This document shows positions 12,481 to 56,509 of a DNA stretch of 60,283 bases, one piece after another. Below the pieces are notes generated by a model. It was given only the letters and a program-made list of their open reading frames with translations. It was not told the DNA's origin and did no database searches. The translations under genes were made by a program, and so were the position numbers. Each line of letters begins with the position of its first letter. Position 1 is the first letter of the stretch. Source of the DNA: Lachnospiraceae bacterium (GTDB lineage: Bacteria > Bacillota > Clostridia > Lachnospirales > Lachnospiraceae); contig SVEA01000096.1 of the NCBI GenBank assembly GCA_015057615.1, positions 1 to 60,283 on the forward strand, in the 5' to 3' direction.

Positions 12481-12625
12481 CGTATAGGAAATTGCGTCCT
12501 ATACGAAAAAAACCTCCATGCGAACATAGTTCGCATGGAGATGACGCACTCGCGCGTAAGGTATTTATCTGCCTGCGGCAGAACGCGCTCGGTGCGAGAG
12601 CTTGCCAAGGCAAACTCTTTGCTAC
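12481..12625 (-). repeat. Family B hairpin-train repeat, copy 2
   Basis: Read on the minus strand it contains GTTTGCC/GGCAAAC, TCTGCC/GGCAGA, ATGCGAAC/GTTCGCAT and CGTATAGG/CCTATACG hairpins in the same order as the other copies. The GTATTCG hairpin is absent. A truncated family A end follows 7 nt later. Confidence 0.8.
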
Positions 12626-16301: not shown

Positions 16302-16427
16302 GGGTTTGTGTCCGCGCGGTATCACAAACTCCATAATAAAGTAAAAGGATCGTTACAACGAGTATATTCATAGACCTTGAACGATCTACAAACTCCATTT
16401 TAAGTAAAATATCGCGCAGAAATGAGG
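16302..16427 (+). promoter_or_regulatory. Predicted H-type pseudoknot leader of potD
   Basis: Stem 1 pairs GGGTTTGTG (16302-16310) with CACAAACTC (16323-16331). Its loop GCGCGGTAT (16314-16322) is complementary to ATATCGCGC (16409-16417), which is followed by AGAAATGAGG, the ribosome binding site of potD. A hairpin with arms GATCGTT and AACGATC lies in the 77-nt linker. The same design, with compensatory changes, precedes kdgA. A cis-acting translational switch is the simplest reading but is inferred. Confidence 0.6.
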
Positions 16428-16436
16428 TTAAAAAAT

Positions 16437-17489
16437 ATGAAAAAAATAATTTTAATTGCTTCCCTCATGATGCTATCCTTCATTTTCGTCGGCTGCAAGA
16501 AGGAGGAAGGCGAAAAGGTATATGTTTATAATTGGGGAGAATATATGGACCCCGAGGTTCGGAAGATTTTCAAAGAGAGAACCGGTATTGAAGTCGTTTA
16601 CGATGAGTATGAAACAAATGAAGAAATGTTTCCAAAGATCAAGGCAAATGCCTTTCAGTATGATGTCATCTGCCCTTCCGATTACATGATTCAGAAAATG
16701 GCAGAAGAGGGACTGCTGGCAGAAATCAATTTTGAAAACATACCCAATATCAAATATATTGACCCTACCTTGCTGGAAAGCTCGGAAACCTTTGACCCCG
16801 GCAATAAGTACGGAATTCCTTACGCCTGGGGCACTTTAGGCATCCTCTATAATAAAACAATGGTAGAGGAGCCGATCGACAGCTGGAGCGCCATATTTGA
16901 TGAAAAATATTCCGATAGCATCCTGATGATCGACAGTGTCCGTGATGCATTTGCAATTGCACTGCGGTACCAAGGCTATGACCTTAACTCCACCAATGAG
17001 AAAGAGTTAAAGGAAGCGCAGGCAATTTTAAAAGCGCAGTACCCCTTGGTTCAGGCTTATGTCGTAGACCAGGTAAGGGATAAGATGATCGGCGGGGAAG
17101 CCGCCCTCGGCGTGATCTATTCCGGTGAAGCGATCTATACGAAGAGGGAGAATCCGGATCTGGAATATGTTGTACCGAAGGAAGGCTCCAATGTCTGGAT
17201 CGACTCCTGGGTAATTCCTAAGAACGCAAAAAACAAGGAGAACGCAGAAGCCTTTATCAATTTCCTCTGCGATCCGGAGATTGCTCTGATGAACTTTGAG
17301 TATATCACCTACTCCACTCCCAATATGGAAGCCAGGAACCTAATTGCGGATGAAGATATTAAGAACAGCCCTGTTGCTTTCCCGGACCAGGCTACCCTGG
17401 ATCGATGCACTGCCTTTAAGTACCTTGGTGAGGACGTAGAGGGCCTATACAATGATATGTGGAATGATGTAAAATCAAATATAAAGTAA
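16437..17489 (+). CDS. potD: Spermidine/putrescine-binding lipoprotein
   Basis: A 350-aa extracellular solute-binding protein tethered by a lipid. The signal peptide MKKIILIASLMMLSFIFVGC ends with a lipobox Cys at residue 20. Mature-domain stretches YNWGEYMDPEV, KYGIPYAWGTLGILYNK and WIDSWVIPKNAKN are characteristic of PotD. The ATG at 16437 is preferred over that at 16422 because GAGG lies 9 nt upstream and the signal peptide then has a standard basic start. It delivers polyamines to PotBC. It ends the operon, with a terminator 5 nt after the stop. Confidence 0.95.
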   Translation: MKKIILIASLMMLSFIFVGCKKEEGEKVYVYNWGEYMDPEVRKIFKERTGIEVVYDEYETNEEMFPKIKANAFQYDVICPSDYMIQKMAEEGLLAEINFENIPNIKYIDPTLLESSETFDPGNKYGIPYAWGTLGILYNKTMVEEPIDSWSAIFDEKYSDSILMIDSVRDAFAIALRYQGYDLNSTNEKELKEAQAILKAQYPLVQAYVVDQVRDKMIGGEAALGVIYSGEAIYTKRENPDLEYVVPKEGSNVWIDSWVIPKNAKNKENAEAFINFLCDPEIALMNFEYITYSTPNMEARNLIADEDIKNSPVAFPDQATLDRCTAFKYLGEDVEGLYNDMWNDVKSNIK

Positions 17490-49202: not shown

Positions 49203-49383
49203 GTAGCAAAGAGTTTGCCTTGGCAAACTCTCGCGCTGAGCGCGTTCTGCCGCAGGCAGATAAAATACCTTACGAATACATGTTTCAAGTATTCGTTACG
49301 TGCTGAGTGCGTCATCCCAATGCGAACTATGTTCGCATGGAGGTTTTTTGTCGTATAGGACACAATTTCCTATACGATAAAAT
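49203..49383 (+). repeat. Family B hairpin-train repeat, copy 3 (complete)
   Basis: Six hairpins in order: GTTTGCC/GGCAAAC, CGCGCT/AGCGCG, TCTGCC/GGCAGA, ACGAATAC/GTATTCGT, ATGCGAAC/GTTCGCAT and CGTATAGG/CCTATACG. The full-length reference for the family in this window. Confidence 0.85.
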
Positions 49384-50344: not shown

Positions 50345-50829
50345 AATTCTGATTTGAATGTGCAAAAGCCTTCTTAACAAATCGTCTTCTTCAATTTACA
50401 AAACATGGAAAATGTGCTAGTAATATGAAACATACTTAATGAGCAACTGTTTGAAGTCGTTGGCACTAAGACCACGTGTTTTGTAGTCTTAGGTGCCATT
50501 CCGTACTTCATTCCAAGTATTGCGTTTTATGCAATGCCTTGGGGGACTGCGTGCTACGGAAGTAGCAAAGAGTTTGCCTTGCCATGCACTCGCGCTGAGC
50601 GCGTTCTGCCGTAGGCAGATAAATACCTTACGAATACATGTTTCAAGTATTCGTTACGTGCTGAGTGCGTCATCCCTATGCGAACTATGTTCGCATGGAG
50701 GTTTTTTGTCGTATAGGACGCATTTTCTATACGACAAAATAGGTTTCCTATTACTACTTGTCAATACATAAATTGTGCAAATTGACGAAGGTGGTTTATA
50801 AATTGGCTTTTGACACTCAAATCAATTCT
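50345..50829 (+). repeat. Family A element carrying a nested family B copy
   Basis: The element spans 50351-50823, with ends GATTTGAATGTGCAAAAGCC and GGCTTTTGACACTCAAATC. The flanks carry the 6-bp direct repeat AATTCT (50345-50350, 50824-50829). The core has GGCAC/GTGCC and GACCAC/GTAGTC stems. Its right arm is interrupted by family B copy 4. Confidence 0.88.
50562..50740 (+). repeat. Family B hairpin-train repeat, copy 4, inside family A
   Basis: All six hairpins of family B are present, inserted in the right arm of the A element between GTGCTACGG and GGTTTCCTATTAC. It is therefore younger than the host A copy. Confidence 0.85.
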
Positions 50830-51052: not shown

Positions 51053-51115
51053 GAGTTTGTGTCCGCACGGCATCCGCAAGCTCCGTAATTCGCTAATAGC
51101 CGTGCAGAAATGAGG
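51053..51115 (+). promoter_or_regulatory. Predicted H-type pseudoknot leader of kdgA
   Basis: Stem 1 pairs GAGTTTGTG (51053-51061) with CGCAAGCTC (51075-51083). The loop GCACGGC (51065-51071) pairs with GCCGTGC (51099-51105), followed by AGAAATGAGG, the ribosome binding site region. It is the same fold as upstream of potD with compensatory base changes in both helices. Confidence 0.65.
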
Positions 51116-51122
51116 TGGAAAG

Positions 51123-52085
51123 ATGAATTCAGTTTTAGAAGAAATTTCATTATTGGGAATCGTACCCGTAATTGCCTTAGATCATACAGAGGATGCCCTT
51201 CCTTTGGCAAAGGCTCTATACGAGGGCGGACTTCCCTGTGCGGAGGTAACCTTCCGTACCGCAGCGGCAGAGGAAGCCATCCGGATTATGACCAAAGCCT
51301 ATCCGGATATGCTGGTGGGTGCAGGTACCGTATTGACCACCGGACAGGTGGACCAGGCAGTGAATGCCGGCGCTAAATTTATCGTAAGTCCCGGGTTTAA
51401 TCCCAAGGTCGTATCTTACTGTGTATCGAAGAATATTCCGATCACTCCTGGATGCTCCAGTCCTTCCGATGTTGAACAGGCTTTAGAGCACGGACTGGAG
51501 GTTGTTAAATTCTTCCCGGCGGAAGCTTCCGGCGGATTAGCTAAGATCAAAGCGATGGCTGCCCCTTACACCAACATGAAATTCCTGCCTACCGGTGGAA
51601 TCAATGCCAAGAATTTAGGCAACTACCTGGAATTCAAGAAAATTATCGCCTGCGGCGGAAGCTGGATGGTAAGTAAGGATTTACTGAAAGCAAGAGATTT
51701 TGATGGTATTAAAAAGCTTACCGAAGAAGCCGTACAGCTGATGCTTGGATTTGAATTAAAACACATCGGAATTAATGCTAATAATGAAACAGAAGCCGGT
51801 TCGATTGCAGACAGCTTTGTTAATATGTTCGGTTTTACGAAGAAAACCGGTAACAGCTCCATCTTTGCCGGAACCGCTATTGAAGTAATGAAGACGCCTT
51901 ACCTTGGTAAGAACGGACATATTGCCATCCAGACCAATGATATCAAGCGTGCGATCTATCACCTTTCAAAACGAGGAGTCGTATTTGATATGGAAACTGC
52001 AAAATCCGACAGCGCTGGTGCAATGAAAGCGGTTTATATGAAAAATGAGGTCGGCGGTTTTGCGGTTCATTTGGTTCAAAAATAA
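51123..52085 (+). CDS. kdgA: KDPG/KHG aldolase fused to a VOC-like domain
   Basis: A 320-aa two-domain protein. Residues 1-210 are a 2-keto-3-deoxy-6-phosphogluconate aldolase, with Lys in VVKFFPAEASGG (Schiff base), PVIALDHTEDALPLAKAL and MLVGAGTVL. Residues 215-320 (ELKHIGINANNETEAGSIAD ... FAVHLVQK) look like a vicinal-oxygen-chelate/glyoxalase-like domain. The aldolase splits KDPG into pyruvate and glyceraldehyde-3-phosphate. The fused domain is not needed for that and may bind a sugar acid. It lies in an operon with kdgK, 66 bp upstream of it, behind a consensus promoter and a structured leader. A good ribosome binding site precedes the ATG. Confidence 0.9.
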   Translation: MNSVLEEISLLGIVPVIALDHTEDALPLAKALYEGGLPCAEVTFRTAAAEEAIRIMTKAYPDMLVGAGTVLTTGQVDQAVNAGAKFIVSPGFNPKVVSYCVSKNIPITPGCSSPSDVEQALEHGLEVVKFFPAEASGGLAKIKAMAAPYTNMKFLPTGGINAKNLGNYLEFKKIIACGGSWMVSKDLLKARDFDGIKKLTEEAVQLMLGFELKHIGINANNETEAGSIADSFVNMFGFTKKTGNSSIFAGTAIEVMKTPYLGKNGHIAIQTNDIKRAIYHLSKRGVVFDMETAKSDSAGAMKAVYMKNEVGGFAVHLVQK

Positions 52086-56175: not shown

Positions 56176-56450
56176 AAAAAAACCTTCCGCCTCAATTTCT
56201 ATTAAAAGTTGCTTCAGCAAACGAAACACTTGATAGAAAAGAGACGAAAGGATCTGCTTCCGTGGTACCACTCTCATTCATAATGATTCTTACTGCAACG
56301 AAGGTATCATTATGCACTCAAATTTCGATAACGGGAATTCCGCCCTAACCTACTTTGGTTCAGAAAGGGAGCTCAAAGGCGAGTTCGGAGCCTGTTGCTG
56401 CTGTCTTCCACCACCGACAGCTCTCTAAAAGCACATTTTCTCTTACTACT
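56176..56450 (-). promoter_or_regulatory. T-box riboswitch of leuS
   Basis: On the minus strand: stem I with a GGTGGTGGAAGA segment and the specifier loop GAACTC (56386-56381), whose CTC is a leucine codon; then the T-box motif AGAGTGGTACCACGG (56274-56260); then the terminator stem CCTTTCGTCTC / GAGGCGGAAGG followed by seven T (to 56176). Uncharged tRNA-Leu should stabilise the antiterminator. All parts lie in the canonical order. Confidence 0.92.
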
Positions 56451-56509
56451 CCTTATCCAAGCTTTTTACATATTTATCTTAAAATCGAATAAATTATTTA
56501 TATTCTATT

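Follow-up and report, generated by a model that had tools for sequence, protein, structure and literature searches.

Bacterial genomes carry several kinds of small non-autonomous dispersed repeats, among them REP/RAYT, ERIC, BOX, RUP and Correia elements and MITEs. Pseudoknots in 5' leaders are known from other systems. The translational riboswitches SAM-II, preQ1-I/II and SAM-V each stand before a few genes belonging to a single pathway, and their fold includes the Shine-Dalgarno site; the pseudoknot leaders of rpsO (S15) and T4 gene 32 belong to single genes under autogenous control. For the 'mobile/repeat sequence candidates' discussed in PMC11109978, orientation to neighbouring genes is described as especially often inconsistent.

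Here we analyse a leader located upstream of kdgA in the window, i.e. the whole 60,283-nt stretch of Lachnospiraceae DNA under study (contig SVEA01000096.1). Copies of this leader stand in front of about 100 genes of the genome that are unrelated to each other, and some relatives also have many copies. On the sequence evidence, the element is probably a dispersed, portable ribosome-binding-site cassette of conserved structure and not a riboswitch of one pathway. The small dispersed repeats named above, and the candidates of PMC11109978, are likewise short, structured, multicopy and patchy between species; unlike them, the element lies mostly in sense just before start codons, brings a Shine-Dalgarno sequence and contains a conserved pseudoknot. 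With SAM-II, preQ1-I/II and SAM-V it shares an H-type-like pseudoknot near the Shine-Dalgarno site, but its fold ends directly before that site, the genes it precedes are unrelated and it has no Rfam match. The rpsO and T4 gene 32 leaders resemble it as 5'-leader pseudoknots able to act on 30S loading; they each serve one gene, whereas the element is a repeat family. Since no kind known to us joins dispersal, a conserved pseudoknot and delivery of a ribosome-binding site, we call the element categorically new, and a stricter reader may count it among the small dispersed repeats, as a further form of these. No description of it was found in the open-access library searched. An earlier one could exist elsewhere, for instance in a 2017 collection that reportedly holds 224 candidate RNAs.

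The kdgA and potD leaders

The kdgA leader (51053-51115, about 63 bases) contains a helix 1 of 9 bp and a helix 2 of 7 bp, whose strands follow the order 5'H1-L1-5'H2-L2-3'H1-L3-3'H2 of a classical H-type pseudoknot, with AGAAATGAGG joined to it without a gap (Table 1). The calculated energies are -10.5 kcal/mol for the helix 1 hairpin and -12.7 kcal/mol for the helix 2 duplex. The tail matches CCUCCUUUCU, the mature 16S rRNA 3' tail of B. subtilis as given in PMC5732282, by complementarity at nine of ten positions, and its duplex with a 16S tail sequence has a calculated energy of -14.1 kcal/mol, compared with -12.3 kcal/mol for plain AAGGAGG. A 16S gene was found neither in this genome nor in the four relatives searched, so the pairing of AGAAATGAGG is judged on the B. 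subtilis tail, by analogy.

Table 1. Positions of the element copies and of other features in the window
Feature	Position	Strand	Basis or remark
kdgA copy, helix 1, 5' strand GAGTTTGTG	51053-51061	+	sequence; covariation
kdgA copy, helix 2, 5' strand GCACGGC, inside helix 1 loop	51065-51071	+	sequence; covariation
kdgA copy, helix 1, 3' strand CGCAAGCTC	51075-51083	+	sequence; covariation
kdgA copy, loop 3, 15 nt	51084-51098	+	sequence
kdgA copy, helix 2, 3' strand GCCGTGC, abuts Shine-Dalgarno tail	51099-51105	+	sequence; covariation
kdgA copy, tail AGAAATGAGG, an extended Shine-Dalgarno	51106-51115	+	9/10 complementary to CCUCCUUUCU
kdgA copy, spacer from tail to ATG, 7 nt	51116-51122	+	
kdgA/eda (KHG/KDPG aldolase), gene served by element	51123-52085	+	ATG 51123
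potD copy, helix 1, GGGTTTGTG / CACAAACTC	16302-16310 / 16323-16331	+	
potD copy, helix 2, 5' strand GCGCGGT(AT)	16314-16322	+	
potD copy, enlarged loop 3 with hairpin GATCGTT/AACGATC and second TACAAACTC	16332-16408	+	
potD copy, helix 2, 3' strand ATATCGCGC, (AT)ATCGCGC	16409-16417	+	
potD copy, tail AGAAATGAGG	16418-16427	+	start codon ATG 16437
potD-like gene, last in potABCD-like cluster	16437-17489	+	
Second dispersed repeat, three hairpin sites	12516-12538 (reverse orientation), 49320-49340, 50678-50698		
T-box leader	56237-56468	minus	Rfam RF00230, 130 bits

The initial annotation had described the same layout at kdgA and potD, a 9-bp stem with a complementary loop followed by a ribosome-binding site, and this was confirmed at both. 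It had also placed the ends of the helices 18-20 nt before the start codon; the gap is 17 nt at kdgA and 19 nt at potD. As potD is the final gene of its cluster, its copy sits inside the cluster. This copy, with its enlarged loop 3, gives two separate matches of the profile model described below. A different loop 3 insert, ATTGTCTCGTAAACGAGCCAAC, was observed in other copies in the genome; judging from these inserts and from the hairpin and second TACAAACTC at potD, loop 3 seems open to insertions.

A search with Rfam 15 gave no match to the kdgA leader up to E=5 and none at four other element loci; one copy from genome G238 gave only matches far below the gathering cut-off, and the window yielded nothing but the T-box, which lies away from the element. 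For these stretches, membership in a known Rfam family is rejected.

Copies of the element in the genome

The sequence AGAAATGAGG occurs 138 times in the genome, compared with 11 occurrences of the reversed pattern, and GCGCAGAAATGAGG, with at most one mismatch, occurs 127 times, compared with none for its control. A sequence-only profile search of the genome returned at least 150 matches, at least 147 of them at E <= 0.01. The seeds of this profile (R1) were 31 copies from the same genome, taken from a group of 81 AGAAATGAGG sites because they have helix 1, so that helix 1 and the tail are favoured; several of the 31 are without helix 2. For further analysis 118 of the matches were used, leaving out 25 with E >5.5e-4 and seven stronger fragments, and sequence was fetched for 114 of them. 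Ninety-five of the 118 are near full length, 19 are without the 5' part, 3 are without the 3' part and 1 is without a few 5' bases. In these numbers the potD copy counts as two, its halves being one of the 3'-lacking and one of the 5'-lacking matches. The assemblies are fragmentary.

Two main subtypes were recognized, GAGTTTGTG/CACAAACTC with GCGCGGC/GCCGCGC and AAGTTTGTG/CACAAACTT with GCGCTGC/GCAGCGC. Loops 1 and 3 vary among copies, loop 3 often being A-rich, and a further hairpin is often present upstream of the unit. Some copies are arranged in tandem and repeat about every 90 bp.

Conservation of the pseudoknot

Alignment A2 comprises 101 matches from this genome (81 sources), aligned by sequence only, without structure. 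Over both helices 91.2% of the cells are paired, and two-sided changes are present at 14 of the 16 pairs. All five covariation measures exceed every shuffle (0/500), in controls that leave the relatedness among copies in place, and slid-partner controls give 21-51%. The compensatory differences first noticed between the kdgA and potD helices are upheld across this alignment: the helices are kept through compensatory change, as in a structured cis-acting RNA. The kdgA orthologue in the relative G024 (93% protein identity) provides a further case, an exchange of A-U to G-C in helix 2.

Taken alone, helix 2 is 86.6% paired in A2. When a run of at least five pairs was demanded of each copy, 75 of the 96 near-full matches tested (from the 101 in A2) passed and 21 failed, one of the failures being the 5' half of the potD copy, which counts as two matches; the pseudoknot is thus not kept everywhere.

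The copies of a named set were selected by two features alone, helix 1 and the 5' half of helix 2; neither the tail nor a start codon entered into the choice. From the matches listed, this set holds 116 copies, after five near locus ends were dropped. One of them, L079 (Krumholzibacteriia), probably matches by chance, and some loci (L095/L135, L093/L052) are near-duplicates, of each other or of a locus in this genome. Among these listed matches all seven helix 2 pairs (G-U allowed) form in the best downstream window in 93 of 116, where the choice of window favoured positions before [AG]GAAA; such a tail is present in 111 of 116. The helix 2 types are GCGCTGC/GCAGCGC (51 copies), GCGCGGC/GCCGCGC (17) and GCGCAGC/GCTGCGC (4).

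As GAGG resembles a Shine-Dalgarno sequence, the pattern could be put down to chance complementarity or to a strong but otherwise ordinary consensus for ribosome binding. The genome-wide counts of both patterns against their controls, the covariation controls and the numbers in the named set leave this explanation with virtually no probability, and with the reversed-pattern, shuffle and slid controls we regard chance or artefact as ruled out.

A competing hairpin can be drawn between TGCGC of loop 3 and GCGCA of the helix 2 3' strand (A2 columns 53-61 with 91-95). It is 83% paired, with weak covariation. At least four of its five pairs are present in 69 of 96 copies, comprising 17 of the 21 that fail the helix 2 test and 52 of the 75 others, an association that is not significant, and in kdgA the hairpin is weak (-1.5 kcal/mol for the segment). 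The weak covariation, its weakness in kdgA and the lack of association with helix 2 loss make it less likely that the hairpin is a general switch.

Start codons and downstream genes

A start codon was accepted when it lay 3-11 nt past the tail and opened a frame that was 40 or more codons long or ran off the fetched stretch. Such a codon follows 88 of the 114 matches in this genome, with a spacing of exactly 6 nt in 63; for near-full-length matches the numbers are 75 of 95 and 54. The 26 of 114 matches that fail are tandem inner units, fragments, copies before short frames and others. In the named set, among the matches listed, 101 of 116 copies have a start codon downstream, 79 of them at 6 nt. 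Further copies adjoining start codons were the test that the initial annotation had named beforehand, and both sets supply them. Ordinary Shine-Dalgarno sites, collected by a crude rule from the other frames of these loci, have a wider spread (9 of 65 at 6 nt). When the spacer measures 6 nt, helix 2 ends 17 nt ahead of the start codon and immediately 5' of the presumed Shine-Dalgarno duplex. The conserved pseudoknot, the extended Shine-Dalgarno tail, the narrow spacing and the missing Rfam match all agree with the earlier proposal of a new cis-acting translational element. Three copies, at G000:C90:2510, C118:4702 and C38:7858, precede a TATAATATCCATGGTA-like sequence, with no gene start there.

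The downstream proteins were compared with Pfam for 83 of the 88 frames, five short ones (41-97 aa) having been dropped. They contain 141 Pfam families, none of which occurs in more than three proteins. Among the genes are those for adenine phosphoribosyltransferase, ThrS-, MetK-, ThiI-, UppS-, UvrA- and ribosomal-protein-L9-like proteins, transporters and response regulators, as named from N-termini and Pfam names, several being read from sequence alone. The downstream gene set is not a pathway regulon, and as no pathway is common to these genes a metabolite riboswitch is not supported.

The missing pathway also bears on the idea of a global regulatory element, in which a metabolite or an RNA-binding protein would bind the pseudoknot and switch the whole gene set. 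Like translational riboswitches and protein-binding leaders, the element does have a conserved fold adjoining its ribosome-binding site, and the paired, weakly covarying competing hairpin would be compatible with it. We nevertheless consider such a regulator rather improbable, in view of the unrelated genes, the absence of the element from most relatives sampled, the variable loops 1 and 3 and the weak competing hairpin in kdgA.

Short upstream frames point to another possibility, that ribosomes translate a frame from the upstream hairpin across the pseudoknot, with coupling to the gene. In 25 of the 95 near-full matches an upstream start with a Shine-Dalgarno-like core opens a frame that enters helix 1, and some of these frames stop at a TGA within AGAAATGAGG. 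The other 70 matches, however, are without such a frame, the stop position varies and kdgA is not among the 25, so that a leader-peptide system is very unlikely. An attenuator with a conserved upstream frame is not supported by the same numbers, the frame being limited to 25 of 95 matches and its stops not being conserved.

Distribution, gain and loss

Within the genus a match at E <= 0.01 is present in 14 of 34 genomes, with copy numbers of at least 147 in this genome, 79 in G024, 10 in G017, 5 in G004 and 1-2 in the rest. At least 24 of 250 genomes of the family and at least 14 of 294 in an order-wide sample match, all but one of the latter in the same family; these counts are lower bounds, the family scan covering at most 21 candidates per genome and the order scan at most 17. 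Lachnospiraceae isolates in which copies occur include strain 28-4 and Parablautia intestinalis.

Eighteen genes of this genome were compared with their counterparts in four relatives (G024, G017, G020 and G030). Of 15 loci in G024, seven have a full copy, three a plain site, and one was unreadable; at the other four the copy is reduced to its 3' part, which the model reported at three of them and which was seen by eye alone at nth. With a full copy at seven of 15 loci, part of the set was either shared by descent or acquired twice. In G017, G020 and G030 the model finds a copy in one of 33 loci (serA in G020). At kdgA, G024 has a copy, G017 has what looks like a 5'-truncated remnant, and in G020 and G030 the upstream region is similar but contains a plain Shine-Dalgarno site. 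The subtypes differ at the same gene between this genome and G024 (thrS) and between this genome and G020 (serA), which suggests separate acquisitions or replacement. Many copies, present or absent at orthologous sites, are what is seen in small dispersed or mobile repeats.

Genome G238 contains near-identical copies, a recent burst. Their pseudoknot is nearly constant and the spacer to the start codon varies by gene, which suggests that on its 3' side the unit ends with the tail. For nine of the 13 G238 genes (coaD-, RidA-, kinase- and NUDIX-like by our own reading, and others) sister loci were read, 48 in all, and the model finds a copy in 0 of 48. Upstream of the G238 pseudoknots stand exchangeable hairpin modules, GAGTGAAAAATAAATTTTTCACTC or AGAACCAACTTTGTTGGTTCT. 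In several cases an apparent native Shine-Dalgarno sequence lies just before the unit, as GAAATGGAGG at the RidA gene (common to a sister) and AAAGAAAGGA at the C29 gene, and several units appear to lie between a native Shine-Dalgarno site and the start codon. Elsewhere among the G238 copies, the Shine-Dalgarno sequence that precedes the upstream hairpin seems to belong to the unit and not to be native.

Three options had been offered for the element at the outset: a riboswitch, a protein-binding site or a mobile leader. The mobile leader fits best, given the many copies, the patchy presence, the empty sites in relatives, the near-identical G238 copies and the differing thrS and serA subtypes. 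The metabolite riboswitch fails on the lack of a common pathway, and global protein binding keeps a small probability.

Mobility could mean that the element is a small dispersed repeat of mainly selfish or neutral character: its hairpins would be used for copying at the DNA or RNA level, its tail would make insertions at start sites tolerable, and its covariation would reflect a need of the copying machinery. This would suit the patchy, burst-like distribution, the tandem arrays and swappable hairpin modules, and the excess of 5'-truncated over 3'-truncated matches (19 vs 3 of the 118). It would also suit the similarity of copies within genomes: the nearest neighbour is in the same genome in 73% of cases, compared with 33% after shuffling, a difference inflated by selection as 89 copies of this genome found by the model were mixed with 75 found by pattern. 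Free insertion, however, predicts copies in other places and in antisense, whereas 88 of 114 matches in this genome and 101 of 116 named copies stand in sense at starts, and helix 2 and the spacing are kept even in diverged copies. We therefore rate a mainly selfish repeat as unlikely, though as the most serious of the alternatives. By eye only, no MITE hallmarks were seen, neither terminal inverted repeats nor a fixed-length target duplication; in the GAG subtype the left flank tends towards YYAC-A.

No element match was found in plasmids. In IMG/VR one contig matches, for one exact pattern, and 14 unannotated gut 'phage' records carry the element. In the variant held by two unverified records of this kind, L398 (MT836618.1) and L399 (MT837110.1), the helix registers are shifted and read TTTGTGTC/GACACAAA when judged by eye. 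Their elements precede ACT-domain-like and DnaB-like frames by our own reading of the translations; with such bacterial-looking genes the records may be host DNA, and they give no evidence of phage carriage.

Proposed mode of action and spread

For a portable ribosome-binding-site cassette, the AGAAATGAGG tail would take over from the native Shine-Dalgarno site in pairing with the 16S 3' end. Ending about 17 nt ahead of the start codon, the pseudoknot would stand at the upstream margin of the ribosomal mRNA channel and may tune 30S loading; it could dock or insulate when folded, or hinder loading if opening is needed. The apparent 3' boundary at the Shine-Dalgarno sequence suggests that a copying process joins new copies to Shine-Dalgarno-like sequences and in this way spreads the element within a genome, and selection would then maintain the helices and the spacing.

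A bolder version, which we hold tentatively and with somewhat less than even confidence, is that the ribosome-binding site is the element's target. The element would integrate between the Shine-Dalgarno site and the start codon, leaving the old site and installing a new, pseudoknot-guarded one; the translation of about 100 unrelated genes would be rewired in this way, and the same genes would be hit by repeated independent acquisitions.

The sequence comparisons point to an unrecognised kind of dispersed element that would alter gene translation. If so, translation signals in part of the Lachnospiraceae would arise not only by base-by-base tuning but also arrive as ready-made folded cassettes, comparable to some mobile elements that deliver promoters. 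One genome would then offer about 100 natural pseudoknot variants before different genes, making the effect of structure just upstream of the Shine-Dalgarno duplex on initiation testable, and the question would arise which machinery copies DNA into start sites.

Other repeated features

A second dispersed repeat consists of GAGTGCGTCATCC followed by ATGCGAACTATGTTCGCATGGAG and a T run, and is terminator-like. Besides the three sites in the window, its hairpin was found at six more sites in other loci of the genome. Another repeated leader ends in a GAAAGGAGCATGGTTATAA-like sequence just before start codons (L018, L044, L198, L216, L227, L137, L146, L371 and L397), sometimes downstream of a pseudoknot tail, and is possibly a second ribosome-binding-site module.
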